Positions 44,991 through 64,000 of a stretch of 64,000 bases of DNA are shown one piece after another; the first letter of the stretch is position 1, and every line of letters starts with the position of its first letter. The DNA lies in assembly GCF_024584805.1 (NCBI RefSeq), contig NZ_CP075715.1, positions 6,915,526-6,979,525 on the forward strand, in the 5' to 3' direction. Under the pieces are notes generated by a model. It was not told the origin of the DNA and ran no database searches. It saw nothing but the letters and a program-made list of their open reading frames with translations. Origin of the DNA: Streptomyces sp. FIT100 (lineage in GTDB: Bacteria > Actinomycetota > Actinomycetes > Streptomycetales > Streptomycetaceae). The translations under genes and the position numbers were made by a program.

Positions 44991-45002
44991 GGGGAGGGGT
45001 GC

Positions 45003-46193
45003 GTGAGACGTATGACGGCTCGACCCGCCAACGCGCATCAGGCGCGGCTGCTGCGGCTGCTCCGCGACGGCGGGCCCAACTCCAGGGCCCAGCTGGGGGA
45101 TCAGGTCGATCTCTCGCGCTCCAAGCTCGCCGTCGAGGTCGACCGGCTGCTGGAGACCGGACTCGTCGTCGCCGACGGCCTCGCCGCATCCCGCGGTGGC
45201 CGGCGCTCGCACAACATCCGGCTCGCCCCCGGCCTCCGCTTCCTCGGCGTCGACATCGGCGCCACCTCCGTCGACGTAGCCGTCACCAATGCCGAACTGG
45301 AAGTGCTCGGCCACCTCAACCACCCGATGGACGTCCGCGAAGGGCCGGTCGCCGTCTTCGAGCAGGTCCTCGCGATGGCCGCCAAACTCAAGGCGTCCGG
45401 ACTCGCCGAGGGCTTCGACGGCGCGGGCATCGGCGTGCCGGGGCCCGTGCGCTTCCCCGAGGGCATCCCCGTCGCACCGCCGATCATGCCCGGCTGGGAC
45501 GGCTTCCCCGTCCGCGAGGCGCTCAGCCAGGAACTGGGCTGCCCCGTCATGGTCGACAACGACGTGAACCTGATGGCGATGGGGGAGCAGCACGCCGGAG
45601 TCGCCCGCTCCGTCGGCGACTTCCTCTGCGTCAAGATCGGCACGGGCATCGGCTGCGGCATCGTCGTCGGCGGGGAGGTCTACCGCGGCACGACCGGCAG
45701 CGCCGGCGACATCGGCCACATCCAGGTCGAGGCCGACGGACGCGCCTGCGCCTGCGGCAACAAGGGCTGCCTGGAGGCCCACTTCAGCGGCGCCGCGCTC
45801 GCCCGCGACGCCGAGGAGGCGGCCCGCACGGGACAGTCGCCCGAGCTCGCCGACCGGCTGGAGACGGCGGGGAAGCTCACCGCCGTCGACGTCGCGGCCG
45901 CCGCGGCGGCCGGGGACGCCACGTCCCTGGAGCTCATCCGCGAGGGCGGCAACCGTGTCGGCCAGGTCATCGCCGGACTCGTCAGCTTCTTCAACCCCGG
46001 CCTCGTCGTGATCGGCGGCGGCGTCACCGGACTCGGCCACACCCTGCTCGCCAGCGTCCGCACCCAGGTCTACCGGCAGTCACTGCCGCTGGCCACCGGC
46101 AACCTCCCGATCGTGCTGGGCGAACTGGGCCCCACCGCCGGAGTGATCGGCGCGGCCCGCCTCATCAGCGACCACCTGTTCTCACCCGCGTAA
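45003..46193 (+). CDS. ROK-family transcriptional repressor
   Basis: The protein has 396 aa. The N-terminal winged helix-turn-helix includes NAHQARLLRLLRDGGPNSRAQL and DLSRSKLAVEVDRLLETG. The ROK domain shows the ATP-binding DIGATSVDVAV, the ROK signature IGTGIGCGIVVGGEVYRG and the zinc motif CACGNKGCLEAHFSG. It presumably binds a sugar or sugar phosphate and represses the downstream ABC/oxidoreductase genes. GTG 45003 is chosen because GAGGGG lies about five bases upstream; ATG 45012 is an alternative. It is first in a co-directional block that reaches the window's end. Confidence 0.9.
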   Translation: MRRMTARPANAHQARLLRLLRDGGPNSRAQLGDQVDLSRSKLAVEVDRLLETGLVVADGLAASRGGRRSHNIRLAPGLRFLGVDIGATSVDVAVTNAELEVLGHLNHPMDVREGPVAVFEQVLAMAAKLKASGLAEGFDGAGIGVPGPVRFPEGIPVAPPIMPGWDGFPVREALSQELGCPVMVDNDVNLMAMGEQHAGVARSVGDFLCVKIGTGIGCGIVVGGEVYRGTTGSAGDIGHIQVEADGRACACGNKGCLEAHFSGAALARDAEEAARTGQSPELADRLETAGKLTAVDVAAAAAAGDATSLELIREGGNRVGQVIAGLVSFFNPGLVVIGGGVTGLGHTLLASVRTQVYRQSLPLATGNLPIVLGELGPTAGVIGAARLISDHLFSPA

Positions 46194-47920: not shown

Positions 47921-48951
47921 CGCAGCCCGCCTCCGAGGCCCCGCAGGCACCGCCGCCGCCCGTGGCCAAGCCCACCGCCGACCGGGGCGGCCGGCGTCCG
48001 GCGGTCGGACTGCGCGCCGATGTGCGCAATCTGTCCCTGCTCGGCGTCCTGGCCGTCCTGATCGCCGTCGGCGGCATCACCAAGCCCGACACCTTCCTGG
48101 ACACCTCCAACCTCCAGCTGGTGCTCACCCAGGCGTCCGTCATCGGTGTCGTCACCGTCGGCATGACCTTCGTCATCACCAGCGGCGGCATCGACCTGTC
48201 CGTCGGCGCGATCGTCGCCCTCGCCTCCGTATGGGCGACGACCGTCGCCACCCAGGAGTACGGCTTCGCCGGCATCCTCTTCACCGCGGTCATCGTCGGT
48301 CTGGGCTGCGGACTGGTCAACGGACTGCTCATCGCCTACGGCGGCATGGTGCCGTTCATCGCGACCCTCGCCATGCTCGCATCGGCCCGCGGACTCGCCC
48401 TGCAGATCACCGACGGCAGGACCCAGATCGTCACCGTGACGTCGGTGCTCGACCTCGGCGTGCCCGACTCCTACATCCTCGGCGTCCCGCCGCTGGTCCT
48501 GGTCTTCGCCGCGGTCACGATCGTCGGCTGGCTGGTCCTGAACCGCACGACGTTCGGCCGCCGCACCGTCGCCGTCGGCGGCAACGCCGAAGCCGCCCGC
48601 CTCGCCGGCATCGACGTACGCCGCCAGCGGCTCTACCTCTACCTGCTCTCCGGGCTGTGCTGCGGAATCGCCGCATTCCTGCTGATCATCCTGTCCGGCT
48701 CCGGCCAGAACACCAACGGCAACCTCTACGAACTCGACGCCATCGCCGCGGCGATCATCGGCGGCACCCTGCTCAGCGGCGGCCGCGGCACCATCGTCGG
48801 CTCCGTGCTCGGCGTCCTCGTCTTCACCACCATCACCAACATCTTCGCCCTCAACAATCTGGAGAGCGCCGTCCAGCAGATCGCCAAGGGAGCGATCATC
48901 GTGGCCGCCGTCCTGGTCCAGCGCAGCACCCTGCGCAACGGCGAGACGTGA
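47917..48951 (+). CDS. Sugar ABC transporter permease (RbsC-type)
   Basis: This is a 344-residue membrane permease of the BPD_transp_2 family used by ribose, xylose and inositol importers. An N-terminal proline-rich cytosolic stretch is followed by eight to ten hydrophobic helices. Conserved stretches are MTFVITSGGIDLSVGAIVAL and the ATPase-contact loop NRTTFGRRTVAVGGNAEAARL, then SGIDV-like AGIDVRRQRLYLY. ATG 47917 overlaps the ATPase stop (ATGA), so the proteins are made together. Confidence 0.95.
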   Translation: MTQPASEAPQAPPPPVAKPTADRGGRRPAVGLRADVRNLSLLGVLAVLIAVGGITKPDTFLDTSNLQLVLTQASVIGVVTVGMTFVITSGGIDLSVGAIVALASVWATTVATQEYGFAGILFTAVIVGLGCGLVNGLLIAYGGMVPFIATLAMLASARGLALQITDGRTQIVTVTSVLDLGVPDSYILGVPPLVLVFAAVTIVGWLVLNRTTFGRRTVAVGGNAEAARLAGIDVRRQRLYLYLLSGLCCGIAAFLLIILSGSGQNTNGNLYELDAIAAAIIGGTLLSGGRGTIVGSVLGVLVFTTITNIFALNNLESAVQQIAKGAIIVAAVLVQRSTLRNGET

Positions 48952-49066
48952 CAGCCGGGCCCGCCCGCCTGTCCCGCACCTCACGCCTCGCCACCGTCCA
49001 CCCCCCTCACCCCCGCACCCGCCCCGCACGCCCGATCGCACCCTGTCCCGAAAGGGGTCTGTCGCC

Positions 49067-50122
49067 ATGCCAGAAATCACGGGCACCAGCCGCAGAGGAC
49101 TGCTCTTCGGCACCGCCGCCGTCTCCGCCGGCGCCCTGCTCACCGCCTGCACCAGCAACGAGCCCAGTAAGTCCGATAAGGCGGCCACGGCCACGAACAA
49201 CGCGCCGGCCGCCGACGACGCCCCCGGCAAGGCCGTCACCATCGGTTTCGCCGGACCCCAGGCCGACCACGGCTGGCTGAACGCCATCAACCAGAACGCC
49301 AAGGACCGGGCGGCCAAGTACTCCGACGTGACCCTGGAGATCACCGAGGGCTCCAACGACACCGCCGCCCAGATCGGCCAGATCCAGACCCTCATCAACA
49401 AGAAGGTCGACGTCCTGGTGATCCTGCCGGCCGACGGCAAGGCCCTGACCCAGGTCGGCCTCCAGGCCATGAAGGCCGGCATCCCCGTCATCAACCTGGA
49501 CCGGATCTTCGCCTCCCCGCAGGCGTACCGCTGCTGGATCGGCGGCGACAACTACGGCATGGGCCTCAACGCCGGCCGCTACATCGGCGAACAGCTCAAG
49601 GACAAGCCGAACGCCAAGGTCATCGAGCTCGCCGGGCTCGACAACCTGGAGCTCACCAAGCAGCGCAGCCAGGGCTTCGACGACGCCCTCAAGAACTACC
49701 CCAACATCACCAAGGTGGCACGCCAGGCCGCCGAATTCACCGTCGAGTCCGGCCAGGCCAAGATGGCCCAGCTGCTCCAGGCGCAGAAGCAGTTCGACGC
49801 GCTGTGGAACCACGACGACGACCAGGGCGTGGGCGCCCTGCGCGCCATCCAGCAGGCCGGCCGCGACGACTTCCTCATGGTCGGCGGCGCCGGCGCCAAG
49901 TCCGCGATGGACGCCATCAAGGCCGACAACAGCGTGCTCAAGGCGACCGTCCTCTACCCGCCGACCATGGCCGCGTCCGCCATCGACCTGGCGCGGGCGC
50001 TCGGCCAGGGCAAGGGCATCGGCGGTCTCGCGGAGCTGGAGATCCCCGCCTCGATCACGCTCTACTCGGCCGTCGTCACCAAGGACAACGTCGCCGAGTA
50101 CGAGCCCACGGGCTTCAGCTGA
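49067..50122 (+). CDS. Sugar ABC transporter substrate-binding lipoprotein
   Basis: The protein has 351 aa. The signal SRRGLLFGTAAVSAGALLTAC combines a twin-arginine-like start with a lipobox (LTAC), suggesting Tat export and lipid anchoring. The mature part is a Peripla_BP_4 (ribose-binding-like) fold with IGFAGPQADHGWLNAINQNAK and VLVILPADGKALTQVGLQAMKAG, then GDNYGMGLNAGRYIG. It should bind a sugar or cyclitol for the adjacent permease/ATPase. ATG 49067 lies 115 bases after the permease stop, with AAAGGGG upstream. Confidence 0.93.
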   Translation: MPEITGTSRRGLLFGTAAVSAGALLTACTSNEPSKSDKAATATNNAPAADDAPGKAVTIGFAGPQADHGWLNAINQNAKDRAAKYSDVTLEITEGSNDTAAQIGQIQTLINKKVDVLVILPADGKALTQVGLQAMKAGIPVINLDRIFASPQAYRCWIGGDNYGMGLNAGRYIGEQLKDKPNAKVIELAGLDNLELTKQRSQGFDDALKNYPNITKVARQAAEFTVESGQAKMAQLLQAQKQFDALWNHDDDQGVGALRAIQQAGRDDFLMVGGAGAKSAMDAIKADNSVLKATVLYPPTMAASAIDLARALGQGKGIGGLAELEIPASITLYSAVVTKDNVAEYEPTGFS

Positions 50123-50168: not shown

Positions 50169-51365
50169 ATGGAACAGAGGGACAGTGAGGCCGCGCCGCC
50201 GACGCTCGGCATCGGCATGGTCGGATACGCGTTCATGGGCGCCGCCCACTCCCAGGGGTGGCGCACCGTGGGCCGCGTCTTCGACCTGCCGCTGAGGCCG
50301 GTCCTCGCCGCGATCGGCGGCCGTGACGCGACCGCGGTCAGGGCCGCGGCGGACCGGCACGGCTGGGCGGCTGCGGAGACGGACTGGCGAGCCCTCGTGA
50401 CCCGGGACGACGTCCAGCTGGTCGACGTCTGCACCCCCGGTGACAGCCATGCGGAGATCGCCATCGCGGCGCTGGAGGCGGGCAAACACGTCCTGTGCGA
50501 GAAACCGCTGGCCAACTCGGTCGCCGAGGCCGAGGCCATGGCCTCGGCGGCCGAGCGGGCCGCGGCGCGCGGCCAGGTGGCGATGGTCGGCTTCAACTAC
50601 CGGCGGGTGCCCGCGATCGCGTACGCCCGCCGGCTCATCGACGGCGGCCGGCTCGGTGCGCTGCGCCACGTACGGGTCACCTACCTCCAGGACTGGCTCG
50701 TCGACCCCGACTTCCCGCTGACCTGGCGGCTGGAGCGCGAACACGCCGGCTCGGGAGCCCTCGGCGACCTGGGCGCCCACGCCGTCGACCTCGCCCAGTA
50801 CCTGGCGGGGGAGCCGCTCGTCGGCGTCTCCGCGCTCACCGAGACCTTCGTGCGGGAGCGGCCGCTGCTCGCCGGGGCGTCGAGCGGTCTGTCGGCATCC
50901 GGCGGCGCCGCGCGCGGAGCGGTCACCGTCGACGACGCCGCCCTGTTCACCGGGCGGCTCGCCTCCGGCGCCCTCGCCTCCTTCGAGGCCACCCGGATGG
51001 CGTCGGGCCGCAAGAACGCCCTGCGGCTGGAGATCAACGGTGAACTCGGCTCGCTCGCCTTCGATCTGGAACGGCTCAACGAGCTGTCCTTCCACGACAA
51101 CACCGAGCCCGCCGCGTCGGCCGGCTTCCGGCGGATCCTGGTCACCGAGGCCGACCACCCGTACCTCGCGGCGTGGTGGCCGCCCGGCCACGCCCTCGGC
51201 TACGAGCACACCTTCACCCACCAGGCACACGACCTGGTGCACGCCATCGCCGAAGGGACCGCGCCCGCACCGTCCTTCGCCGACGGCCTCCAGGTGCAGC
51301 GCGTCCTCGCAGCGGTGGAGGAGAGCGCCGAGAAGAACGCCGTCTACACACCCATCCCCCTGTGA
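50169..51365 (+). CDS. Gfo/Idh/MocA-family NAD(P)-dependent oxidoreductase
   Basis: The 398 aa open with a Rossmann motif, [18 protein letters not shown], and contain the family EKP motif ([20 protein letters not shown]) with the catalytic-type lysine. The C-terminal alpha/beta domain includes [20 protein letters not shown] with the conserved Asp/His pair. The family oxidises sugars, inositols or glycosides, often at C3. Its position after a sugar ABC importer and before a TIM-barrel isomerase matches known 3-keto-sugar or inositol pathways. AGGAGG lies about eight bases before ATG 50169. Confidence 0.93.
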
Positions 51366-51391: not shown

Positions 51392-52396
51392 GTGCCACGT
51401 CCCTTCACCCTCTTCACCGGCCAGTGGGCCGATCTTCCCCTGGAGGAGGTCTGCCGGCTCGCCCGCGACTTCGGCTACGACGGACTCGAACTCGCCTGCT
51501 GGGGCGACCACTTCGAGGTCGACAAGGCCCTCTCCGACCCCTCCTACCTGGACGGGCGGCGGGCGCTGCTCGACAAGTACGGGCTCCAGTGCTGGGCGGT
51601 CTCCAACCATCTCGTCGGGCAGGCCGTCTGCGACCACCCGATCGACGAGCGGCACAAGGCGATCCTGCCCGCCCGGATCTGGGGCGACGGCGAGCCCGAG
51701 GGCGTACGGCAGCGGGCGGCACGCGAACTCGCCGACACCGCACGCGCCGCCGCCGCCTTCGGCGTCCGTACCGTCATCGGCTTCACCGGTTCCTCGATCT
51801 GGCATCTGGTCGCCATGTTCCCGCCGGTGCCCGAGCACATGATCGAGCGCGGGTACGAGGACTTCGCCGAACGCTGGAACCCGATCCTCGACGTCTTCGA
51901 CGCCGAAGGCGTCCGCTTCGCCCACGAGGTCCACCCCAGCGAGATCGCCTACGACTACTGGACCACGCACCGCGCCCTGGAGGCCGTCGGCCACCGCCCC
52001 GCCTTCGGGCTGAACTTCGACCCCAGCCACTTCGTCTGGCAGGACCTCGACCCGGTCGGCTTCCTGTGGGACTTCAAGGACCGTATCTACCACGTCGACT
52101 GCAAGGAGGCGCGGCGCCGCCTCGACGGCCGCAACGGCCGGCTCGGCTCGCACCTGCCCTGGGGCGACCCGCGGCGCGGCTGGGACTTCGTCTCCGCCGG
52201 GCACGGCGACGTGCCCTGGGAGGACGTCTTCCGGATGCTCCGTTCCATCGGCTACGACGGCCCGATCTCCGTGGAATGGGAGGACGCGGGCATGGACCGC
52301 CTCGCCGGCGCCCCCGAAGCGCTCGCCACCCTCAAGCGCTACGACTTCGACCCGCCGTCGGCCTCGTTCGACGCGGCCTTCGGAGGCAACGACTAG
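51392..52396 (+). CDS. Sugar phosphate isomerase/epimerase (AP endonuclease 2-type TIM barrel)
   Basis: This TIM-barrel protein (334 aa) of the xylose isomerase-like/IolE superfamily has conserved metal-binding residues in [38 protein letters not shown] and the closing [10 protein letters not shown]. Members isomerise, epimerise or dehydrate sugar and inositol derivatives. The 3-keto-glycoside pathway uses a close family for bond cleavage. GTG 51392 is preferred because GGAGGT is seven bases upstream; GTG 51362 would overlap the previous stop but lacks a ribosome site. It belongs to the importer/oxidoreductase operon. Confidence 0.92.
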
Positions 52397-52714: not shown

Positions 52715-55700
52715 GTGCACAGAAAACGGCCCGGAGCACAACGAGCCCGCATCAGAAAGGGACTCGCGCTCCTCACCGGCAGCCTTCTCGCCGCGACGTC
52801 ACTGGCCATCTCCGCCCCCGGCGCCGCGGCCCACCCGGACCACCCGGCCCCCGCCCCGGCGGCCGAGGAGTTCCAGCAGGTCACCCTCGCCAAGGGCGAG
52901 CCCGAGACCGGCGAGCCCATGTCCCTCGCCGTCCTGCCCGACCGCAGCGTCCTGCACACCTCGCGCGACGGCGAGCTGCGCAGCACCGACGCCGCCGGCA
53001 ACACCAAGGTGATCGGCACCATCCCCGTCTACTCGCACGACGAGGAAGGTCTCCAGGGCGTCGGCATCGACCCCGCCTTCGCCGAGAACCGGGCGATCTA
53101 CCTCTACTACGCGCCCCCGCTGGACACCCCCGCAGGCGACGCGCCCAACGACGGCACGGCCGCCGACTTCGCCAAGTACGACGGAGTCAACCGGCTCTCC
53201 CGCTTCGTCCTCAAGGCCGACGGAACCCTCGACAACGCCAGCGAGAAGAAGGTCATCGACATCCCCGCCACCCGCGGCATCTGCTGCCACGTCGGAGGGG
53301 ACATCGACTTCGACGCGCAGGGCAACCTGTACCTGTCCACCGGCGACGACTCCAACCCGTTCGCCTCCGACGGCTACACGCCCATCGACGAGCGCACCGG
53401 CCGCAACCCCGCCTACGACGCCCGCCGCACCTCCGGCAACACCAACGACCTGCGCGGCAAGGTCCTGCGCATCAAGGTCGCCGACGACGGCTCCTACACG
53501 GTCCCCGACGGCAACCTCTTCGCCCCGGGCACGGACAAGACCCGGCCCGAGATCTACGCGATGGGCTTCCGCAACCCCTTCCGCTTCAGCGTCGACAAGA
53601 AGACCGGAATCCTCTACGTCGGCGACTACGGGCCCGACGCGGGCGCGGCCGACCCCAAGCGCGGCCCGGCCGGACAGGTCGAGTTCGCCCGCATCACCAA
53701 GCCCGGCAACTTCGGCTGGCCCTTCTGCACCGGCGACAACGACCCCTACGTCGACTACGACTTCGCCACCAAGGTGTCCGGAGCCACCTTCGACTGCGCG
53801 GCCCCGAAGAACGACTCGCCGTACAACACCGGCCTGGTCGACCTGCCGCCCGCCGAGCCGGCGTGGCTCCCCTACGACGGCGGCTCCGTCCCCGAGTTCG
53901 GCACCGGCTCCGAGTCCCCGATGGGCGGGCCCGTCTACCGCTACGACCCGGACCTCGACTCCCCGGTCAAGTTCCCCGAGGCGTACGACGGCGACTTCTT
54001 CGCCGGCGAGTTCGGCCGCCGCTGGATCAAGCGCATCGAGCACGGCGACGACGGCACCGTCCAGTCCATCAACCCCGTCCCGTGGACCGGAACGCAGATC
54101 ATGGACATGGCCTTCGGGCCCGACGGGGCGCTGTACGTCCTCGACTACGGCACCGCCTGGTTCGGCGGCGACGAGCACTCCGCGATCTACCGCATCGAGA
54201 ACGCCACCGGAGGCCGCTCCCCGGTCGCCGAGGCCGGCGCCAGCAAGACCTCCGGCACCGCCCCGCTGCGGGTCGCCCTCTCCTCGGCCGGCACCACCGA
54301 CGCCGACGGCGACGCCCTCACCTACAGCTGGGACTTCGGCGACGGCGGCACCTCCACCGCGGCCAACCCCACCCACACCTACCGCAAGAACGGCACCTAT
54401 ACGGCGACCGTGACCGCCAAGGACCCGACGGGACGCACCGGCTCCGCCAGCGTCCAGGTCGTCGTCGGCAACACCGCACCCAAGGTCACACTGGAACTGC
54501 CCACCGAGGGCGCACTGTTCAGCTTCGGCGACGAGGTCCCCTTCAAGGTGACCGTCACCGACCCGGAGGACGGCACCGTCGACTGCGCCAAGGTCAAGGT
54601 CACCTACGTCCTCGGCCACGACAGCCACGGCCACCCCGTGACCTCCGCGAACGGCTGCACCGGCACCATCAAGACCTCCGCCGACGGCGGACACGACCCC
54701 AACGCCAACATCTTCGGAGTCTTCGACGCCGAGTACACCGACGGCGGAGGCGGCGGCCAGGCCCCGCTCACCACACACGACCAGGCGCAGCTCCAGCCCC
54801 GGCACCGGCAGGCCGAGCACTTCAGCGCCCAGTCCGGCATCACGGTCTACGACAAGGCGCCCGCCAACGGAGGAAGGACCGTGGGCGACATCGACGACGG
54901 GGACTGGATCTCCTTCAAGCCCTACAACCTGTCCGGCTCCACCAAGCTCACCGCCCGGATCTCCTCCGGCGGCGCGGGCGGCTTCCTCGAAGTGCGCACC
55001 GGCTCGGCGACCGGCACCCTCCTCGGCTCCGCCCCCGTCCCGGTGACCGGCGGCTGGGAGACCTTCCAGGACATCGACGTACCCCTGCGGGCCGTGCCGA
55101 AGAAGACCACCGAACTCTTCCTGGTCTTCAAGGGCGGAGCCGGAGCGCTCTACGACGTCGACGACTTCGAACTCTCCAGCACCCCCGTCGACCGCACCGC
55201 CAAGCGGGTCCTCGTCTTCTCCAAGACCGCCGGCTTCCGCCACGACTCCATCCCCACCGGTGTCGCCGCCCTGAAGGAACTCGGCGCCGGAAGCAACATC
55301 ACCGTCGACGCCACCGAGGAAGCCGCCCAGTTCACGACGAGCAACCTCGCCCGCTACGACGCCGTCGTGTTCCTGTCCACCACCGGTGACGTCCTCAACG
55401 CCGACCAGCAGAAGGCGTTCGAGAACTACGTCGCCACGGGCGGCGGCTACATGGGCGTCCACGCCGCGGCCGACACCGAGTACGACTGGGGCTTCTACGG
55501 CGGACTCGTCGGCGCCTACTTCCACTCCCACCCGCAGATCCAGAAGGCCACCGTCCGCGTCGAGGACCACGACCACCCCGCCACCTCGCACCTGGAGGCG
55601 GCCTGGGAGCGCACGGACGAGTGGTACAACTACCGCACCAACCCGCGCGGTCAGGCCCGCATCCTCGCCACCCTGGACGAAACCACCTACCAGGGCGGCA

Positions 55701-56428
55701 ACATGAAGGGCGACCACCCCATCGCCTGGTGCCAGACCTACCAGGGCGGCAGGGCCTTCTACACCGGCGGCGGACACACCAAGGAGTCCTACGCCGAGCC
55801 GGCCTTCCGCCGGCACCTCCTCGGCGGACTGCGCTACGCCTCCGGACAGGTCAACGCCGACTGCAAGCCGGCGACCGGCTACCGCGACCTGTTCAACGGC
55901 CAGACCCTGGAAGGCTGGAAGCAGGCGGGGCCCGGGAAGTTCAACGTCGTGGGCGGCGAGCTGCAGACCGAGGGCGGCATGGGCATGCTCTGGTACCAGG
56001 CCAAGCAGTTCGCGTCGTACTCGCTCAAGCTCGACTGGAAGATGGCGGGCGACGACAACTCCGGGATCTTCGTCGGCTTCCCGGCCTCCGACGACCCCTG
56101 GTCCGCCGTGAACAACGGCTACGAGATCCAGATCGACGCCAGCGACGCACCTGACCGCACCACCGGTGCGATCTACAGCTTCAAGTCGGCCGACCTCAAG
56201 GCCCGCGACCGGGTGCTGCGGCCCCCGGGCCAGTGGAACAGCTACGAGGTCAAGGTCCAGGGCGAGCGGCTCCAGGTCTTCCTCAACGGAGTGAAGATCA
56301 ACGACTACACCAACACCGACCCCGTCCGCAGCCTGAAGGACGGCTACATCGGCCTCCAGAACCACGGAGCCGACGACCAGGTCTCCTTCCGCAACATCCA
56401 GATCAAGGAGCTGCCCTCGGCGTCGTAG
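52715..56428 (+). CDS. Secreted multidomain protein: sugar dehydrogenase, PKD, CBM6-like, ThuA and DUF1080 domains
   Basis: The 1237 aa begin with a signal peptide (KGLALLTGSLLAATSLAISA, cleavage near APGAAAH). Domains in order: a PQQ-type glucose/sorbosone dehydrogenase beta-propeller (~50-500; YAMGFRNPFRFSVD, EFGRRWIKRIEHG); a PKD domain (~510-590; YSWDFGDGGTSTAANPTHTY); a second Ig-like segment (~595-690); a CBM6-like module (~695-830); a ThuA domain (~835-1055; VLVFSKTAGFRHDSIPTGVA, GGGYMGVHAAADTEYDW); and DUF1080/3-keto-disaccharide hydrolase (~1058-1235; FNGQTLEGWKQAG, NSGIFVGFP). It probably binds, oxidises or cleaves glycosides outside the cell. GTG 52715 follows GGAGG by six bases. 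Confidence 0.92.
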   Translation: MHRKRPGAQRARIRKGLALLTGSLLAATSLAISAPGAAAHPDHPAPAPAAEEFQQVTLAKGEPETGEPMSLAVLPDRSVLHTSRDGELRSTDAAGNTKVIGTIPVYSHDEEGLQGVGIDPAFAENRAIYLYYAPPLDTPAGDAPNDGTAADFAKYDGVNRLSRFVLKADGTLDNASEKKVIDIPATRGICCHVGGDIDFDAQGNLYLSTGDDSNPFASDGYTPIDERTGRNPAYDARRTSGNTNDLRGKVLRIKVADDGSYTVPDGNLFAPGTDKTRPEIYAMGFRNPFRFSVDKKTGILYVGDYGPDAGAADPKRGPAGQVEFARITKPGNFGWPFCTGDNDPYVDYDFATKVSGATFDCAAPKNDSPYNTGLVDLPPAEPAWLPYDGGSVPEFGTGSESPMGGPVYRYDPDLDSPVKFPEAYDGDFFAGEFGRRWIKRIEHGDDGTVQSINPVPWTGTQIMDMAFGPDGALYVLDYGTAWFGGDEHSAIYRIENATGGRSPVAEAGASKTSGTAPLRVALSSAGTTDADGDALTYSWDFGDGGTSTAANPTHTYRKNGTYTATVTAKDPTGRTGSASVQVVVGNTAPKVTLELPTEGALFSFGDEVPFKVTVTDPEDGTVDCAKVKVTYVLGHDSHGHPVTSANGCTGTIKTSADGGHDPNANIFGVFDAEYTDGGGGGQAPLTTHDQAQLQPRHRQAEHFSAQSGITVYDKAPANGGRTVGDIDDGDWISFKPYNLSGSTKLTARISSGGAGGFLEVRTGSATGTLLGSAPVPVTGGWETFQDIDVPLRAVPKKTTELFLVFKGGAGALYDVDDFELSSTPVDRTAKRVLVFSKTAGFRHDSIPTGVAALKELGAGSNITVDATEEAAQFTTSNLARYDAVVFLSTTGDVLNADQQKAFENYVATGGGYMGVHAAADTEYDWGFYGGLVGAYFHSHPQIQKATVRVEDHDHPATSHLEAAWERTDEWYNYRTNPRGQARILATLDETTYQGGNMKGDHPIAWCQTYQGGRAFYTGGGHTKESYAEPAFRRHLLGGLRYASGQVNADCKPATGYRDLFNGQTLEGWKQAGPGKFNVVGGELQTEGGMGMLWYQAKQFASYSLKLDWKMAGDDNSGIFVGFPASDDPWSAVNNGYEIQIDASDAPDRTTGAIYSFKSADLKARDRVLRPPGQWNSYEVKVQGERLQVFLNGVKINDYTNTDPVRSLKDGYIGLQNHGADDQVSFRNIQIKELPSAS

Positions 56429-56528: not shown

Positions 56529-57653
56529 GTGACCAATCCCAAGGAACACCGCACCGGGGTCTGGCTGATCGGAGCCCGCGGCTCCGTCGCCACCACCGCG
56601 ATCGCCGGCTGCGCCGCGGTCACAGCCGGACTGCACCCGGCCACGGGCATGGTGACGGAAACCCCGCCGTTCGCCGCGGCCGGACTGCCATCGTTGTCAT
56701 CGCTGGTCTTCGGCGGCCACGACACCACCGCCTGCCCCCTGCCCAAGCGGGCCGAACACCTCGCCGCCGGCGGCGTCCTGCCCCACGGCCTGCCCGCCGC
56801 CCTGCGCGCCGAACTCACCGCGGCCGACGAGGAGATCCGCACCGGCGGACCACTCCCCGGAGACACCCGCACCGACACCGAACTCATCGCAGCCTTCACC
56901 GCCGACCTCACCTCCTTCCTGCGCCGCCACGACCTCGCCCGCGCCGTCGTCGTCAACGTCGCCTCCACCGAACCCGCCCCGGGCCCGGACGCCGAACGGC
57001 TCCCCGCCAGCTCCCTCTACGCGGCCGCCGCGATCGAGGCCGGCTGCCCCTACATCAACTTCACCCCCTCCACCGGGCTGCGCACCGCGGCCCTCACCGA
57101 CGCCGCCTCCGCCCGCGGACTTCCCCACGCGGGCCGGGACGGCAAGACCGGCCAGACGCTGCTCCGCTCCGTACTCGCCCCGATGTTCGTGCAACGTGCC
57201 CTGTCCGTCCGGGCATGGTCCGGCACCAACCTGCTGGGCGGCGGGGACGGGGCGGCGCTGGCCGACCCCGCGGCGGCAGCGGCGAAGAACGCCGGCAAGG
57301 AACGCGTCCTCGCCGACAGCCTCGGCGCCGCACCCCAGGGCGAGGTGCACATCGACGACGTGCCCGCACTCGGGGACTGGAAGACGGCCTGGGACCACAT
57401 CGCCTTCGACGGCTTCCTCGGCACCCGCATGGTCCTGCAGACCACCTGGCAGGGCTGCGACTCCGCCCTCGCGGCCCCCCTCGTCCTCGACCTGGCCCGC
57501 CTCCTCGCCCGCGCCCACGAGGCGGGCATCTCCGGCCCCCTTCCCGAACTCGCCTTCTACTTCAAGGACCCCGACCCGGGCGCCCCGGCGGCCCTCGCCG
57601 AGCAGTACGGGGAGCTGCTCGGCCTTGCCGACCGCCTGCGGGACGCCCGATGA
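56529..57653 (+). CDS. Inositol-3-phosphate synthase-family sugar-phosphate cyclase
   Basis: The 374 aa begin with an NAD-binding Rossmann segment, VWLIGARGSVATTAIAG. Cyclase-family stretches follow: GCPYINFTPSTG, the lysine-bearing DGKTGQTLLRSVLAPMF, GTNLLGGGDGAALADP, and LQTTWQGCDSALAAPLVLDL. These match the order of myo-inositol-1-phosphate synthase conserved blocks. The family converts glucose 6-phosphate to inositol 3-phosphate by internal oxidation, aldol closure and reduction. Another sugar phosphate is possible. It is first in a run of overlapping ebo-like genes, so it probably supplies a cyclitol to that pathway. GTG 56529 has GGGAGG about eight bases upstream. Confidence 0.85.
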   Translation: MTNPKEHRTGVWLIGARGSVATTAIAGCAAVTAGLHPATGMVTETPPFAAAGLPSLSSLVFGGHDTTACPLPKRAEHLAAGGVLPHGLPAALRAELTAADEEIRTGGPLPGDTRTDTELIAAFTADLTSFLRRHDLARAVVVNVASTEPAPGPDAERLPASSLYAAAAIEAGCPYINFTPSTGLRTAALTDAASARGLPHAGRDGKTGQTLLRSVLAPMFVQRALSVRAWSGTNLLGGGDGAALADPAAAAAKNAGKERVLADSLGAAPQGEVHIDDVPALGDWKTAWDHIAFDGFLGTRMVLQTTWQGCDSALAAPLVLDLARLLARAHEAGISGPLPELAFYFKDPDPGAPAALAEQYGELLGLADRLRDAR

Positions 57654-59239
57654 CACCCGGCCGCGGCCTCGGCCGGGGCACCCGCGGCGCCGTGGCGGCC
57701 GTGACCGCGCTCGGGGCCGTGGGCGTCCTCGGCGTCCTGGCGGCACTGCGCTCCTCGGCCGGGCCGCAGCCGTCCCGGTCCCCGACGGGCCCCCGCCCCG
57801 CACCGCGAGCTGTCACGGGCTCCCACCGCCCGCCGGCGGGCGGTGCGCCGGCCCGCGCCGAAGAACAGGCGGGGGACAGCCCCGGCGGGACGAGGGGACC
57901 GGAGCCCGCGGCCGCGTCCGGGCCCCCCGACGCCCCCGACGCCCCCGACGCCCCCGACGCCCCCGACGTGCCGGAAGGGACGGCGCCCGATACGCCCCCC
58001 GGTGCGGCGCCTGATGCGGTGTCGGGCCGCACCGGGGCACGGGCCGGGGCTACCGGCGCCGATCCGGCTCAGCCGAGAGCGTCGGCACCGACACCGGCAC
58101 CCGCACCCGGACCGGCACCCGCGCCCGGACCGGCACCCGCGCCCGGACCGGCACCGGCACCGGCACGGGCGGCCGGGAGGCGGGCGCGGCCGGACGCCGC
58201 GGCCACCCCCGCCGCGGTGGCCGCGGGGCGCGGCGGCCGACTACGCGCATGGGCCGAACTCCTGCGCGTCTCCGCCCTGTTCACCGTCCCCGGCGACGCG
58301 CTCGCCGGCGCGGCCTGTGCCGGGCTGCGCCCCAACCGGGGCACTGCGCTCGCCGTGGGCGCCTCGCTGTGCCTGTACGAGGCGGGCATGGCCCTCAACG
58401 ACTGGGCCGACCGCGACGAGGACGCCGTCGAACGCCCGCACCGCCCCCTCCCGTCCGGCCGGATCAGCCCGCCCGCGGCCCTGGCCGCGGCCGGCGCCCT
58501 GACCGCCGCCGGCCTGGCCCTGGCGGCCCGGGCGGGCCGCGCCCCGCTGGCCGTCGCCACGACCCTGGCGGCGGCGGTCTGGTCGTACGACCTCCACCTC
58601 AAGCACACCCCGGCAGGCCCGGCGGCGATGGCCTCGGCCCGCACCCTGGACCTCCTCCTCGGCGCGACGGCCACCCGCCCCACGGCACTGCGCCCCGCCC
58701 TGCCGCACGCCGCGCTCCTCGGCGCCCACACCTACGCGATCACCTCCGTCTCCCGCCACGAAACCCAGGGCGGTTCCACCAGGGCGCCCCTCGCGGCGCT
58801 GGCGACCGCCCTGGTCATCACCGCGGCGACGGCCCGCCCACGCAACCGGCCCTCTCCCACCGCCGGGACCGGGGTCGGGAGCGGCACCGGGGCCTGGGCC
58901 GGGACCGGGGCAGGGGCAGGGGGCAGCCCGCCCACGGCACCGGCCGGACGCCTCCGGGACCGGGCCGCGTCCCTGATGCGGGCATCCGACGGCCTCGCCC
59001 CCGTCGCCGCCGGGCTCGCCGCCTCCGCCTACGCCCGCACCGCCCTCACCCCCTTCCTGCACGCCGCCCTCAACCCCTCCCCGCCCCTCACCGAACGCGC
59101 CGTCGGCGCCGGGATCCGCGCCATGATCCCGCTGCAGGCCGCCCTCGCCGCACGCTCCGGCGCGCCCGGCACCGGCCTCGCCGTCCTCGCGCTCGTCCCC
59201 GTTGCCCGACGCCTCGCCAGGAAGGTGAGCCCCACATGA
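57650..59239 (+). CDS. eboC: UbiA-family prenyltransferase (SCO3242-like/EboC) with long low-complexity N-terminus
   Basis: The chain has 529 aa. A short hydrophobic N-terminus (TRGAVAAVTALGAVGVLGVL) is followed by about 150 residues of proline/alanine repeats (PDAPDAPDAPDAPD; PAPAPGPAPAPGPAPAPG). From ~residue 195 comes a UbiA membrane domain. Its first diphosphate/Mg motif is NDWADRDEDAVERPHRPLPSG. The second region reads SARTLDLLLGATATRP, with fewer acids than usual. It should transfer a prenyl chain to a polar acceptor in the membrane. ATG 57650 overlaps the upstream stop. GTG 58217 is an alternative start giving a normal-sized 340-residue enzyme. Confidence 0.82.
   Translation: MTPGRGLGRGTRGAVAAVTALGAVGVLGVLAALRSSAGPQPSRSPTGPRPAPRAVTGSHRPPAGGAPARAEEQAGDSPGGTRGPEPAAASGPPDAPDAPDAPDAPDVPEGTAPDTPPGAAPDAVSGRTGARAGATGADPAQPRASAPTPAPAPGPAPAPGPAPAPGPAPAPARAAGRRARPDAAATPAAVAAGRGGRLRAWAELLRVSALFTVPGDALAGAACAGLRPNRGTALAVGASLCLYEAGMALNDWADRDEDAVERPHRPLPSGRISPPAALAAAGALTAAGLALAARAGRAPLAVATTLAAAVWSYDLHLKHTPAGPAAMASARTLDLLLGATATRPTALRPALPHAALLGAHTYAITSVSRHETQGGSTRAPLAALATALVITAATARPRNRPSPTAGTGVGSGTGAWAGTGAGAGGSPPTAPAGRLRDRAASLMRASDGLAPVAAGLAASAYARTALTPFLHAALNPSPPLTERAVGAGIRAMIPLQAALAARSGAPGTGLAVLALVPVARRLARKVSPT
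57931..57968 (+). repeat. 9-bp coding repeat (Pro-Asp-Ala) in the prenyltransferase N-terminus
   Basis: CCCGACGCC units are repeated in tandem, encoding PDAPDAPDAPDAPD. The copy number can vary in frame. Confidence 0.85.
58086..58160 (+). repeat. 18-bp coding repeat (Pro-Ala-Pro-Ala-Pro-Gly)
   Basis: Units of the type CCGGCACCCGCGCCCGGA recur about four times with small changes, encoding PAPAPGPAPAPG-like sequence in the same low-complexity region. Confidence 0.85.
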
Positions 59240-60093
59240 GCCTGCGCCTCGGCTATGGAACCAACGGCCTCACCGACCTCCGCCTCGACGACGCCCTCGT
59301 CCTCCTCGCGGACCTCGGCTACGACGGCGTCGGCCTCACCCTCGACCACATGCATCTCGACCCGCTCGCCCCCGATCTCGGCTCCCGCACCCGCCGGCTC
59401 GCGGGCCGCCTCGCCGACCTCGGCCTGGAAGTCACCGTCGAGACCGGCGCCCGCTACGTCCTCGACCCGCGGCGCAAGCACGGCCCGTCGCTTCTCGACC
59501 CCGACCCGGACGCCCGCGCCGCCCGCACCGGACTCCTCGTCCGCGCCGTGCAGGTCGCCGAGGACCTCGGCGCGCACGCCGTGCACTGCTTCAGCGGCAT
59601 CACCCCCGCGGCCACCGCGCCCGAGACCGCCTGGCAGCGCCTCGAAGCCGCCCTCACCCCCGTCCTGGACGTCGCGGCCACCGCCCGCGTCCCCCTCGCC
59701 GTCGAACCCGAACCCGGCCATCTCCTCGCCACCCTCGACGACTTCCATCACCTGCGCACCCTCCTCGGCGACCCCGAACCCCTCGGCCTCACCCTCGACA
59801 TCGGCCACTGCCAGTGCCTGGAGACGGCACCCCCCGCCGACTGCGTCGAACAGGCCGCCCCCTGGATCCGGCACGTCCAGATCGAGGACATGCGCCGCGG
59901 CGTCCACGAACACCTCCCCTTCGGCGACGGCGAGATCGACTTCCCGCCCGTCCTCGACGCCCTCGCCGCCACCGGCTACCGCGGCCTGACCGTCGTCGAA
60001 CTGCCCCGCCACTCCCACGCGGGCCCCGAACTCGCCCGCGCCTCCCTCGACTTCCTGCGCTCCCACCTCCCCTCGAACGGAGCCGCGGCATGA
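59236..60093 (+). CDS. Sugar phosphate isomerase/epimerase-like TIM-barrel protein of the ebo-like operon
   Basis: This 285-residue AP endonuclease 2/xylose isomerase-like TIM barrel has metal-site residues in VTVETGARYVLDP, LAVEPEPGHLLATLDDF, LGLTLDIGHCQCLE, HVQIEDMRRGVHEHLPFGDG and the last-strand VVELPRHSH. It would act on a sugar- or cyclitol-like compound. It is not closely similar to the isomerase at 51392, so it is not a local duplicate. ATG 59236 overlaps the prenyltransferase stop (ATGA), and its own stop overlaps the eboA start. Confidence 0.9.
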   Translation: MSLRLGYGTNGLTDLRLDDALVLLADLGYDGVGLTLDHMHLDPLAPDLGSRTRRLAGRLADLGLEVTVETGARYVLDPRRKHGPSLLDPDPDARAARTGLLVRAVQVAEDLGAHAVHCFSGITPAATAPETAWQRLEAALTPVLDVAATARVPLAVEPEPGHLLATLDDFHHLRTLLGDPEPLGLTLDIGHCQCLETAPPADCVEQAAPWIRHVQIEDMRRGVHEHLPFGDGEIDFPPVLDALAATGYRGLTVVELPRHSHAGPELARASLDFLRSHLPSNGAAA

Positions 60094-60692
60094 CCACCCT
60101 GACCCGCGACGAACTCGACACCCGGCTCGACGCCGCCGCCCGCGCCTGGCTGCGCCAAGCCCTCGACGAAGCGTCCCGCCCCGACGACGGCACCCCACCC
60201 GCCTGGGAAATCCGCTTCGCCGCCGCGGGCCGCCACTGCGGCCAGGACCACGCCGACTCCGTACGCACCCTCCTCCTGCGCGAAGCCCGCGCCGACGCGG
60301 CCACCCTCACCCGCCTCTACCAGCAGGGCACCGCAGCCGAACGTCGCGCCGTCCTCCTCTCCCTGCCCCAACTCGCCCCCGCGCCTGCCGACGGCCTGCC
60401 CCTCGTCGAGGACGCCCTGCGCACCAACGACACCCGGCTCGTCGCCGCCGCCGTCGGCCCCTACGCCGCCGAACACCTCGATGCGCACTCCTGGCGCCAC
60501 GCACTCCTCAAATGCCTGTTCACCGGCGTGCCACTGGCCGCGGCCGACGGACTCGAACGCCGTGCCCGGGGCGACGCGGAACTGGCCCGCATGCTCGGCG
60601 ACTACGCCGCCGAACGCACCGCCGCCGGCCGCCCCGTCCCCGCCGACCTCCACCGCGTCCTCGCCCTGACGTCCCCCACGGAGAAGTCCTGA
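60090..60692 (+). CDS. eboA: EboA-domain protein
   Basis: The protein has 200 aa, mostly helical and without catalytic motifs that I can see. The pattern WEIRFAAAGRHCG, RLYQQGTAAERRAVLLSLPQL and EDALRTNDTRLVAAAVGPYA, with LKCLFTGVPL, is that of EboA-domain proteins, which have HEAT-like helices and unknown function. The ebo operon is known from cyanobacteria (scytonemin export is linked to it), Bacteroidota and eustigmatophyte plastids. Order and overlaps place this protein in the same pathway as the prenyltransferase and EboB/E/F. ATG 60090 overlaps the previous stop; its stop TGA shares a base with the eboB start (TGATG). Confidence 0.88.
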   Translation: MTTLTRDELDTRLDAAARAWLRQALDEASRPDDGTPPAWEIRFAAAGRHCGQDHADSVRTLLLREARADAATLTRLYQQGTAAERRAVLLSLPQLAPAPADGLPLVEDALRTNDTRLVAAAVGPYAAEHLDAHSWRHALLKCLFTGVPLAAADGLERRARGDAELARMLGDYAAERTAAGRPVPADLHRVLALTSPTEKS

Positions 60693-61540
60693 TGCGCATC
60701 TTCGACCCCCACATCCACATGACCTCCCGCACCACGGACGACTACCAGGCGATGCACGCCGCCGGCGTCCGCGCCGTCGTCGAACCCTCCTTCTGGCTCG
60801 GCCAGCCCCGTACCTCACCCGCCTCCTTCTTCGACTACTTCGACGCCCTCCTCGGCTGGGAACCCTTCCGCGCCGCCCAGTACGGCATCGCCCACCACTG
60901 CACCGTCGCCCTCAACCCCAAAGAGGCCAACGACCCCCGCTGCACCCCCGTCCTCGACGCACTGCCCCGCTATCTCGTCAAGGACAACGTCGTCGCCGTG
61001 GGCGAGATCGGCTACGACTCCATGACCCGCGCCGAGGACACCGCCCTCGCCGCCCAGCTCCAGCTCGCCGCCGACCACCAGCTGCCCGCCCTCGTGCACA
61101 CCCCCCACCGTGACAAACTCGCCGGCCTGCGCCGCACCATCGACGTCGTCCGCGAATCGGCGCTCGCCCCCGAGGACGTCCTCCTCGACCACCTCAACGA
61201 GACGACCGTCAAGGAGGCCAAGGACGCCGGCTGCTGGCTCGGCTTCTCCATCTATCCCGACACCAAGATGGACGAGGACCGCATGGTCGCCATCCTCAGG
61301 ACCCACGGCACCGAGAAGGTCCTCGTCAACTCGGCCGCCGACTGGGGCAAGAGCGACCCCCTCAAGACCCGCAGGACCGCCGACGCCATGCTCGCCGCCG
61401 GATTCACCGCCGACGACGTCGACCAGGTCCTGTGGCGCAACCCCGTCGCCTTCTACGGCCGAAGCGGCCGCCTCCAGCTCGACGTCCCCGCACCCGAGGC
61501 CCTGCACGAGGGCAACTCGATCCTCCGCGGCGGGGAATGA
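60692..61540 (+). CDS. eboB: TatD-family metal-dependent hydrolase (EboB-like)
   Basis: This amidohydrolase-superfamily protein has 282 aa. The N-terminal metal motif is IFDPHIHMTSR (HxH). Later residues are VAVGEIGYDSM (Glu), LVHTPHRDK (His), DHLNETT (His) and VNSAADWG (Asp), giving a complete TatD-like two-metal site. TatD members are nucleases or small-molecule hydrolases; in ebo operons the substrate is unknown. ATG 60692 overlaps the eboA stop by one base. The eboE gene follows after 13 bases. Confidence 0.9.
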   Translation: MRIFDPHIHMTSRTTDDYQAMHAAGVRAVVEPSFWLGQPRTSPASFFDYFDALLGWEPFRAAQYGIAHHCTVALNPKEANDPRCTPVLDALPRYLVKDNVVAVGEIGYDSMTRAEDTALAAQLQLAADHQLPALVHTPHRDKLAGLRRTIDVVRESALAPEDVLLDHLNETTVKEAKDAGCWLGFSIYPDTKMDEDRMVAILRTHGTEKVLVNSAADWGKSDPLKTRRTADAMLAAGFTADDVDQVLWRNPVAFYGRSGRLQLDVPAPEALHEGNSILRGGE

Positions 61541-61553
61541 GGAGGCGACCCGT

Positions 61554-62723
61554 ATGCGCTTCCGCCACCCCGACGGCTCCACCGTCCACCTCTCCTACTG
61601 CACCAACGTCCACCCGGCCGAGACCCTCGACGGCGTCCTCGCCCAGCTGCGCGACCACTGCGAACCCGTCCGCAAACGCCTGGGCCGCGACCGCCTCGGC
61701 ATCGGCCTGTGGCTGGCCAAGGACGCCGGCCGCGCCCTCGTCACCGACCCTGCTGCCCTGCGCGGACTGCGCGCCGAACTCGACCGCCGCGGCCTGGAAG
61801 CCGTCACCCTCAACGGCTTCCCCTACGAGGGATTCGGCGCCGACGAGGTCAAGTACCGCGTCTACCGGCCCGACTGGACCGAGCCGCCGCGGCTCGCCCA
61901 CACCAGCGACCTCGCCCGGCTCCTCGCCGCCCTGCTCCCCGACGACGTCACCGAGGGATCCGTCTCCACCCTCCCGCTCGCCTGGCGCACCCGCTTCGAC
62001 GAGCAGGCCGCCGCCACCGCACGCACCGCGCTGACCACCCTCGCCGAACGCCTCGACGCCCTCCAGGAACTCACCGGCAAGTCGATCCGGATAGCCCTCG
62101 AACCCGAACCCGGCTGCACCGTGGAGACCACCGCCGACGCGATCGGCCCGCTCACCGCCATCGCCGACAACCGCATCGGCATCTGCATCGACACCTGCCA
62201 TCTCGCCACCTCCTTCGAAGAACCCGGCCCCGCGCTGGACGCCCTCGCCACCGCGGGCATCACCATCCCCAAAGCGCAGCTCTCCGCCGCCCTGCACGCC
62301 GAACACCCCCACCTCCCCGAGGTCCGCGACGCACTCGCCGCCTTCGCCGAACCCCGCTTCCTCCACCAGACCCGCACCCGCACCGCCGCCGGCCTGCGCG
62401 GCACCGACGACCTCCACGAGGCACTCGCCGCCGACGCCCTCCCCGACGGCGCCCCCTGGCGCGCCCACTTCCACGTGCCCCTCCACGCACCACCGGCCCC
62501 GCCGCTCACCTCCACACTGCCCGTACTCCAGGACACCCTGGCCCGCCTCGTCGGCGGCCCCACACCACTCACCCACCACCTCGAGGTCGAGACCTACACC
62601 TGGCAGGCCCTCCCCGCCGAGCTGCGGCCCCGCAGCCGTGCCCAGCTCGCCGACGGCATCGCCGCCGAACTCACCCTCGCCCGCGACCTGCTCACCGAAC
62701 TCGGCCTCAAGGAACTCCCATGA
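61554..62723 (+). CDS. eboE: Metabolite traffic protein EboE-like (TIM barrel)
   Basis: The protein has 389 aa and opens with HLSYCTNVHPAETLDGVLAQL, the recognisable start of EboE proteins. A xylose isomerase-like barrel follows, with TLNGFPYEGFGADEVKYRVY, IALEPEPGCTVETTAD, RIGICIDTCHLATSFE and a late HFHVPLHAPP. EboE has been tied to export of scytonemin precursors in cyanobacteria, but its reaction is not known. ATG 61554 follows GGAGG by eight bases. Its stop overlaps the eboF start (ATGA). Confidence 0.9.
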   Translation: MRFRHPDGSTVHLSYCTNVHPAETLDGVLAQLRDHCEPVRKRLGRDRLGIGLWLAKDAGRALVTDPAALRGLRAELDRRGLEAVTLNGFPYEGFGADEVKYRVYRPDWTEPPRLAHTSDLARLLAALLPDDVTEGSVSTLPLAWRTRFDEQAAATARTALTTLAERLDALQELTGKSIRIALEPEPGCTVETTADAIGPLTAIADNRIGICIDTCHLATSFEEPGPALDALATAGITIPKAQLSAALHAEHPHLPEVRDALAAFAEPRFLHQTRTRTAAGLRGTDDLHEALAADALPDGAPWRAHFHVPLHAPPAPPLTSTLPVLQDTLARLVGGPTPLTHHLEVETYTWQALPAELRPRSRAQLADGIAAELTLARDLLTELGLKELP

Positions 62724-64000
62724 CCGCCACCTCCGCCCAGGGCACCGTGCGACCCACCCCCCTCCTCGTCCTGGACGTCGTCGGCCTCACCCCTCGTCTG
62801 CTCGACCACATGCCCCACCTCAGGAAGCTCGCCACCACCGGCTCGCACGCCCCGCTCGGCACCGTGCTCCCCGCCGTCACCTGCACCGCCCAGTCCACCT
62901 TCCTCACCGGCACCCTCCCCGACGAGCACGGCATCGTCGGCAACGGCTGGTACTTCCGCGAACTGGGCGACGTCCTCCTGTGGCGCCAGCACAACGGCCT
63001 GGTCGCCGGCGACAAACTCTGGGACGCCGCCCGCCGCGTCCACCCGGACTACACCGTCGCCAGCATCTGCTGGTGGTACGCGATGGGCGCCGACACCGAC
63101 ATCACCGTCACCCCCCGCCCCGTGTACTACGCCGACGGTCGCAAGGAACCCGACTGCTACACCCGGCCCCCGGCGCTCCACGACGAACTCACCGAACGCT
63201 TCGGCACCTTCCCCCTGTTCCACTTCTGGGGCCCGGGCGCCGACATCGTCTCCAGCCGCTGGATCATCGACGCCACCCGGCACATCCTGCGCACCCGCAC
63301 CCCCGACCTCGCCCTGTGCTACCTCCCGCACCTCGACTACGACCTGCAGCGCTACGGCCCCGACGACCCCCGCTCCCTGCAGGCCGCCGCCGACCTCGAC
63401 ACAGCCGTCGCCCCCCTCCTCGACGACGCCGCCCGCGAAGGCCGCACCGTCGTCGCCCTCTCCGAATACGGCATCACCCGCGTCACCCGCCCCATCGACA
63501 TCAACCGCGAACTGCGCCGCGCCGGCCTCCTCGAAGTCCACACCCAGGACGGCATGGAGTACCTCGACACCATGGCCTCCCGGGCCTTCGCCGTCGCCGA
63601 CCACCAGCTCGCCCACATCTACGTACGCCGGCCCGAGGACCTCGACGCCACCCGAGAAGCCCTCGACGGCCTGCCCGGGATCGCCCAGCTCCTCGACGAC
63701 GAGGGCAAGAAGGAGCACGGCCTGGACCACCCGCGCTCCGGCGAGCTCGTCGCCGTCGCCGACCCCGACGCCTGGTTCACGTACTACTACTGGCTCGACG
63801 ATACGAAGGCCCCCGACTTCGCCCAGCTCGTCGAGATCCACCGCAAGCCCGGATACGACCCCGTCGAGCTCTTCATGGACCCCGAGGACCCCTACGTCCG
63901 TATCAAGGCCGCCGCGGCCCTCGCCCGCAAGAAACTCGGCATGCGCTACCGCATGGCGGTCGTGCCGCTCGACCCCTCACCTATTCGCGGCAGCCATGGC
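62720..64000 (+). CDS. eboF: Alkaline phosphatase-superfamily protein (EboF-like), 3' end outside window
   Basis: 427 codons are visible and the frame is still open at base 64000. The family fold is clear: LLVLDVVGLTPRLL at the first metal site, TVLPAVTCTAQSTFLTG with the threonine nucleophile, then DEHGIVGNGWYF. Two metal-site elements deviate from nucleotide pyrophosphatases: LDYDLQRYGP has Gln where the usual His stands (DxxxHxxG), and ALSEYGITRV has Glu-Tyr where Asp-His is usual. It may be a distinct phosphoester or phosphonate hydrolase, or a non-classical enzyme. ATG 62720 overlaps the eboE stop. More of the operon probably lies beyond. Confidence 0.88.
   Translation, partial: MTATSAQGTVRPTPLLVLDVVGLTPRLLDHMPHLRKLATTGSHAPLGTVLPAVTCTAQSTFLTGTLPDEHGIVGNGWYFRELGDVLLWRQHNGLVAGDKLWDAARRVHPDYTVASICWWYAMGADTDITVTPRPVYYADGRKEPDCYTRPPALHDELTERFGTFPLFHFWGPGADIVSSRWIIDATRHILRTRTPDLALCYLPHLDYDLQRYGPDDPRSLQAAADLDTAVAPLLDDAAREGRTVVALSEYGITRVTRPIDINRELRRAGLLEVHTQDGMEYLDTMASRAFAVADHQLAHIYVRRPEDLDATREALDGLPGIAQLLDDEGKKEHGLDHPRSGELVAVADPDAWFTYYYWLDDTKAPDFAQLVEIHRKPGYDPVELFMDPEDPYVRIKAAAALARKKLGMRYRMAVVPLDPSPIRGSHG

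Follow-up and report, generated by a model that had tools for sequence, protein, structure and literature searches.

Ebo operons were named in 2016 and have had no assigned product since, and the end of one stretch of Streptomyces DNA raises a question about them: what is an inositol-phosphate-synthase-like cyclase doing in such an operon where the cyclase EboD is expected? The window analyzed here, meaning the whole stretch of 64,000 nucleotides, is G000:C1:6915526-6979525 of the 7.97-Mb single-contig genome of Streptomyces sp. FIT100. A first-pass annotation of the window described a Streptomyces-type ebo cluster of seven tightly packed genes, in which a cyclase of the inositol phosphate synthase type (MIPS or INO1) may have replaced EboD, a member of the 3-dehydroquinate (DHQ) synthase family.

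Earlier work has already proposed that ebo makes an isoprenoid-cyclitol and that it has a carrier role (PMC5133447, PMC6282210), and the operon type itself is published. Here we describe the MIPS-type ebo operon: its gene content and order, its exclusion of EboD, its intact MIPS active site and the two or more occasions on which the cyclase has switched. Individual genes of the operon are already annotated in RefSeq. No published account of a MIPS-type ebo operon, of its exclusivity with EboD or of its archaeal occurrence was found in the literature, within a coverage that takes in few subscription journals.

An ebo operon without EboD

The operon spans 56529-64123, ending 123 bases outside the window (Table 1). 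Its genes are as tightly packed as first described: successive overlaps of 4, 4, 4 and 1 bases are followed by a 13-base gap between EboB and EboE and by a last overlap of 4 bases. EboA, EboB, EboE and EboF, recognized through Pfam and NCBIfam families, are clustered, which identifies the locus as an ebo operon. An EboD just past position 64000 would have undone the proposed replacement; none lies in the operon or in the 10 kb downstream, and a search of the whole 7.97 Mb for DHQ synthases returned one strong locus, taken to be AroB, and one marginal match. Because EboD is missing from both operon and genome, we file the locus as an ebo variant and not under the EboABCDEF type. Downstream of EboF lie a further TIM barrel with a Tat-signal-like N-terminus and a HAD acid phosphatase, beyond which a gene on the opposite strand reads as an MFS transporter.

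Table 1. Genes of the MIPS-type ebo operon and of its upstream neighborhood (window positions)
Feature	Position	Strand	Evidence or remark
ROK-family regulator	44781..46193	+	upstream neighbor
RbsA-RbsC-RbsB-type sugar ABC transporter	46397..50122	+	neighbor; ATPase start approximate
Gfo/Idh/MocA oxidoreductase, levoglucosan-dehydrogenase-like	50169..51365	+	neighbor
TIM barrel related to PDB 2zds and to 2-hydroxy-3-keto-glucal hydratase (8ro4)	51392..52396	+	conserved neighbor
GSDH beta-propeller + PKD + CBM6 + ThuA + 3-keto-disaccharide hydrolase, looks secreted	52715..56428	+	conserved neighbor
EboD-replacing cyclase, archaeal-type MIPS	56529..57653	+	PF07994 + PF01658; 374 aa, GTG start
UbiA prenyltransferase, SCO3242 family, EboC position	57650..59239	+	NF045897, 383 bits (cut-off 260)
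AP_endonuc_2 TIM-barrel isomerase/epimerase, usual companion of the cyclase	59236..60093	+	PF01261
EboA, all-helical and HEAT-like by model	60090..60692	+	NF035938 EboA domain, 161.6 (cut-off 50)
EboB, TatD-like amidohydrolase	60692..61540	+	PF01026
EboE, TIM-barrel protein	61554..62723	+	NF035939, 422 bits (cut-off 250)
EboF, alkaline-phosphatase-superfamily phosphodiesterase	62720..64123 (window stops at 64000)	+	PF01663

The possibility that the operon cyclase is the sole inositol synthase of the cell, or one unlinked to ebo, was rejected for this genome. A second, housekeeping INO1 at 3.95 Mb scores 732 bits on the mycothiol INO1 model (TIGR03450, cut-off 638), of which the operon cyclase, with 31.8 bits, is not a member, and no sampled genome has the subfamily of the operon cyclase but lacks EboE (see below).

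The cyclase is an archaeal-type MIPS

Both Pfam domains of MIPS are present in the cyclase, and it aligns over its full length with a solved MIPS structure, which places it in the archaeal type. Its profile found A. fulgidus mIPS (1u1i) as the best match in the PDB (355 bits, E 4e-105, full length), against only 72 bits for M. tuberculosis INO1 and 85 bits for Ari2, and its AlphaFold model (pLDDT 93.6) superposes on A. fulgidus mIPS with a TM of 0.90. Residues D204, K206, N234, D240, K253, K257, K285, D311 and K346 are intact in the window cyclase; in A. fulgidus numbering, D225, K227, N255, D261, K274, K278, K306, D332 and K367 are unchanged in 30/30 ebo cyclases. N255, K278 and K367 are positions mutated in deposited A. 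fulgidus structures; D225, K227, D261, K274, K306 and D332 we take to be catalytic. Our best guess, judging from this complete active site, is that the enzyme would convert glucose 6-phosphate to inositol phosphate. Sedoheptulose 7-phosphate, which the first-pass annotation named as one of two candidate substrates, is unlikely for a full-length MIPS with a complete active site, and the candidate substrate thus shifts to glucose 6-phosphate or inositol phosphate.

One feature counts against this assignment. A. fulgidus position 259 is Gly in 30/30 Actinomycetota ebo cyclases, whose grouping has 100% bootstrap support, and Asp or Asn in the rest of the set; the Gly sits in an ebo-specific loop, LGGGDG (hereafter GGGDG). 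The equivalent residue of the yeast enzyme, Asn354, presumably lines the substrate site, and substrate or product could therefore differ. The cyclase might then be a MIPS relative with a sugar phosphate other than glucose 6-phosphate as substrate and a cyclitol phosphate other than inositol phosphate as product. Ari2, a five-membered-cyclitol-phosphate synthase, illustrates that MIPS homologues are able to change product in this way, and the loop is unique to these 30 ebo cyclases. We consider this unlikely, however, as the ebo cyclase is far nearer to true MIPS than to Ari2 in the scores given above, every catalytic residue checked is retained, and the ebo MIPS of Gemmatirosa and haloarchaea, described below, keep the ordinary LGNxDG loop.

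Replacement of EboD is systematic in Actinomycetota

The mutual exclusivity of the two cyclases, which the first-pass annotation offered as a check, was examined in a phylum sample and a class sample, and holds at the loci examined. Among the 396 genomes of the phylum sample, 18 have EboE above its cut-off. A profile built from an alignment of ebo cyclases and used to score the sample genomes picked out exactly 17 of them, at 537-599 bits, with the following group at 410-426. The ebo cyclase is present in 17 of the 18 EboE genomes, and in the eighteenth (G381) EboE is accompanied by an adjacent EboD of the DHQ-synthase family; further EboD-type relatives were sought in the class of G381, where it was the only one found. 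EboE exceeds its cut-off in 90 of the 395 genomes of the class sample, at 94 loci. The cyclase subfamily, defined there by a threshold of at least 520 bits, occurs in 84 genomes, all of which (84/84) have EboE, so that its conservation with ebo is borne out. At 82 of the 94 loci the cyclase lies 2.6-5.7 kb from EboE, and none of the 94 has a DHQ synthase within 15 kb (Fisher p-values in the class sample, which ignore shared ancestry, are 2e-79 and 6e-29). Replacement of EboD by the cyclase is thus systematic across both samples. In eight sampled genomes (G268, G318, G400, G500, G563, G598, G648 and G680, of which G318 is an incomplete draft) no INO1 was found besides the ebo one, and the operon therefore brings its own.

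The 12 loci without a linked cyclase include five lone EboE relatives (L115-L119) beside sugar ABC genes, three loci at, or consistent with, contig ends (the end being confirmed for G576), and two loci that are the second ebo operon of their genome, the first one having the cyclase. In G549 the operon cyclase is shortened to about 100 residues and an intact copy lies on a different contig, and the operon of G419 lacks cyclase and TIM barrel, relatives of which are found together in another cluster. The five lone relatives score above the NCBIfam cut-off, stand next to RbsA/RbsC-type genes and have no other ebo genes with them. Genomes of family f89 also have, at separate loci, a group of EboE matches that cover half the length (positions 1-242 of the model) and score about 185 bits.

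Could the cyclase be a mere second supply of inositol that stands beside ebo by chance? Mycothiol and phosphatidylinositol are both built with inositol, and the normal MIPS residues are all present in the ebo cyclase. Chance proximity is nevertheless very improbable: a single cyclase clade is tied to ebo and no sampled genome has it without EboE, the pairing of MIPS and ebo is repeated in Gemmatirosa and haloarchaea, and the G549 lineage, with its truncated operon cyclase, has the intact copy elsewhere.

Gene order is equally stable. The best 80 EboE relatives retained from the public set are all from Streptomyces, and the order cyclase-UbiA-TIM-EboA-EboB-EboE-EboF is kept across 80 Streptomyces loci wherever the contig suffices, the exceptions being L038 and a few loci with one gene under the match threshold. 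Operons arranged in this way are also present in further families of Actinomycetota and in a second class, more than chance would give. The label "Streptomyces-type" is therefore too narrow, the more so as MIPS-type operons extend to Gemmatirosa and haloarchaea. At L111 the TIM barrel and EboA share one frame, which fits the Actinobacterial ebo fusions noted by Yurchenko et al., who do not mention the cyclase (PMC5133447). In an actinobacterial operon of the EboD type (L099), the next gene, at 12574-13659, reads by eye as a type 2 isopentenyl-diphosphate isomerase.

The cyclase has switched at least twice

Plasmid-borne ebo operons with an annotated "3-dehydroquinate synthase" are found in Deinococcus, Ketogulonicigenium, Salipiger, Azospirillum, Mycetohabitans, Aureibacter and Roseivivax, a range that besides Deinococcus takes in Pseudomonadota and Bacteroidota, and a MIPS match sought at these seven operons was found at none. 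In Gemmatirosa (L186), MIPS and TIM barrel are accompanied by UbiA, EboF, EboB and EboE, with no EboD. Haloarchaeal ebo-like operons of Halobaculum and Natronococcus (L191, L192) comprise EboB, a TIM barrel, UbiA, a second TIM barrel, MIPS and EboF. A tree of EboB and EboF nests Gemmatirosa with G381 and Deinococcus, both of the EboD type (support 100/99), and keeps it separate from the MIPS-type operons of Actinomycetota; its well-supported branches cannot be explained by fewer than two changes of type. From these MIPS-type operons and the tree it follows that the cyclase has switched at least twice, MIPS-type and EboD-type cyclases having replaced each other more than once, and that the range of ebo extends to haloarchaea and across Actinomycetota.

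MIPS and EboD belong to different protein superfamilies, and what they have in common is the making of a cyclitol from a sugar phosphate. As two unrelated cyclases fill one slot, the simplest reading is that the ebo pathway needs a cyclitol, for which the exchange provides independent support.

A proposed pathway and its companion proteins

We propose that the MIPS-type operon is a second biochemical type of ebo, in which a MIPS cyclase supplies a cyclitol that UbiA prenylates, giving a prenylated cyclitol lipid that serves as carrier or cofactor; we put the probability of this reading at a little under 60%. After the predicted cyclization, the TIM isomerase, EboE and EboB would adjust the ring, as their folds suggest; UbiA, by its family, would attach a prenyl chain to the cyclitol in the membrane; EboF, likewise by family, would remove or cleave a phosphate; and EboA might hold the proteins together. 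The lipid would then carry, or act as a cofactor for, metabolites that are processed outside the cytoplasm. A role of this kind has been argued for ebo in Nostoc: the scytonemin monomer stays in the cytoplasm of the ebo mutants studied (eboD not among them), and the carrier proposed there is a prenylated sugar or cyclitol (PMC6282210). Direct sequence support falls on the cyclase step, and we infer the chemistry that would follow it. In Streptomyces, deletion and lipid analysis are routine.

The replacement is not a simple swap of one cyclase for another. EboD is indeed replaced, but the exchange is usually of two genes for one because an extra TIM isomerase comes with the cyclase. By sequence this TIM barrel is nearest to ketose 3-epimerases and IolE, and it probably edits the ring made by the cyclase. 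It accompanies the ebo cyclase nearly always; the cyclases of G462 and G634, with no linked TIM isomerase, count against our reading. A search of EboD-type loci did not turn up the companion, although Ketogulonicigenium, which is of that type, has a sugar-phosphate isomerase annotated near its ebo genes. Related MIPS and TIM proteins are also paired in another conserved cluster (L150-L160), together with Gfo/Idh/MocA, YcaO, glycosyltransferase and PIG-L deacetylase genes. The EboA model is all-alpha and HEAT-like (pLDDT 96.4); it gave no significant match in the PDB, showing weak HEAT/armadillo-like similarity only, and a sequence search of the PDB gave no match. Such a fold would be compatible with a scaffold role.

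As first annotated, the operon contains a UbiA prenyltransferase, but the one in the EboC position is of the SCO3242 subfamily, scoring 135 on the EboC model (cut-off 250) and 383 on the SCO3242-family model NF045897. After EboC, its next relatives are geranylgeranylglycerol-phosphate transferases. The UbiA domain begins at about residue 200 and has the Asp-rich motif NDWADRDED. Residues 1-195 (57650-58240) form a Pro/Ala-rich extension with short repeats (DAP, PAPAPG) that is shorter in several relatives.

Another reading is that UbiA prenylates an aromatic compound and that the cyclitol is used at another step. The EboC-type Maribacter enzyme Ubi-297 farnesylated quinaldic (quinoline) acids in vitro, and not a cyclitol (PMC9235831), a result that counts against cyclitol prenylation, and one ebo operon lies inside an aromatic polyketide cluster. 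In the Maribacter assay, however, aromatic acceptors were supplied and membranes were used, and no aromatic precursor gene common to ebo operons was seen; we judge an aromatic acceptor improbable.

Genomic neighborhood

The genes upstream of the operon resemble 3-keto-glycoside breakdown more than lipid synthesis, which counts against the prenylated cyclitol lipid; by sequence, the oxidoreductase and TIM barrel at 50169-52396 probably work together in such breakdown. Outside Streptomyces, 14/32 genomes have GSDH genes at their ebo locus, against 0.6 expected from the matches per genome and the loci examined, shared ancestry being uncorrected; nearly all Streptomyces ebo loci with enough flank have them as well. 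A PQQ dehydrogenase lies beside ebo in Salipiger and a PQQ sugar dehydrogenase in Natronococcus. On a Streptomyces plasmid (L195), a MIPS-type operon comes right after a ScyD/ScyE family gene, near cytochrome bd genes.

These neighbors suggest that the product, instead of carrying metabolites, might sit in the membrane as a redox cofactor that serves secreted beta-propeller dehydrogenases of GSDH, PQQ or ScyE type. The enrichment of GSDH genes and the PQQ and ScyD/ScyE genes of Salipiger, Natronococcus and the Streptomyces plasmid speak for such a role. Yet the GSDH neighborhoods share ancestry, so that their count overstates independence; apart from the NAD-dependent cyclase the operon has no recognizable redox enzyme; and the Nostoc mutants hold the monomer in the cytoplasm and are not merely unable to oxidize it (PMC6282210). 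A cofactor of this kind is rather unlikely.

Other MIPS-type operons adjoin type II polyketide genes or have genes for a phosphopantetheinyl transferase, an ABC transporter and a SARP nearby, much as ebo is tied to scytonemin in cyanobacteria. A pair of similar type II polyketide clusters (L189/L194) differ in that one has a full MIPS-type ebo operon and the other a lone eboE in the same position, after a methyltransferase gene. An extension of the prenylated-cyclitol reading, tentative and with the odds somewhat against it, is that the ebo lipids of Bacteria and Archaea are prenylated cyclitols of a class not seen before, with two unrelated cyclase families swapped at least twice and the inositol version serving export or extracellular oxidation, and that it would therefore travel with antibiotic clusters and secreted beta-propeller enzymes.

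Comparison with known systems

Among known systems, the EboABCDEF-type operons of cyanobacteria, Bacteroidota and eustigmatophyte plastids (PMC5133447) are alike in having EboA, EboB, EboE, EboF and a UbiA protein in the operon. They differ in that here MIPS and a TIM isomerase stand for EboD, and an SCO3242-family UbiA for one that fits the EboC model. With the archaeal-type MIPS of A. fulgidus (1u1i) and B. thetaiotaomicron (BT1526, 7nwr) the ebo cyclase shares the full-length fold and the catalytic residues checked, but it forms a clade of its own, has the GGGDG loop and is dedicated to ebo. Mycothiol INO1 has the superfamily and the catalytic lysines in common with it, the TIGR03450 score lying far below the cut-off.

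The window UbiA is a member of the family NF045897 named after SCO3242 of S. coelicolor. SCO3242 and SCO3243, the latter annotated as a myo-inositol phosphate synthase, are listed among the CDA-cluster genes of that species (PMC3610822), whereas the window copy lies in a sugar-catabolism neighborhood. The BE-40644 pathway, discussed in PMC5133447, likewise combines a sugar-phosphate cyclase and UbiA farnesylation in one pathway; its cyclase, however, is an EEVS acting on sedoheptulose 7-phosphate and lies outside any ebo operon.
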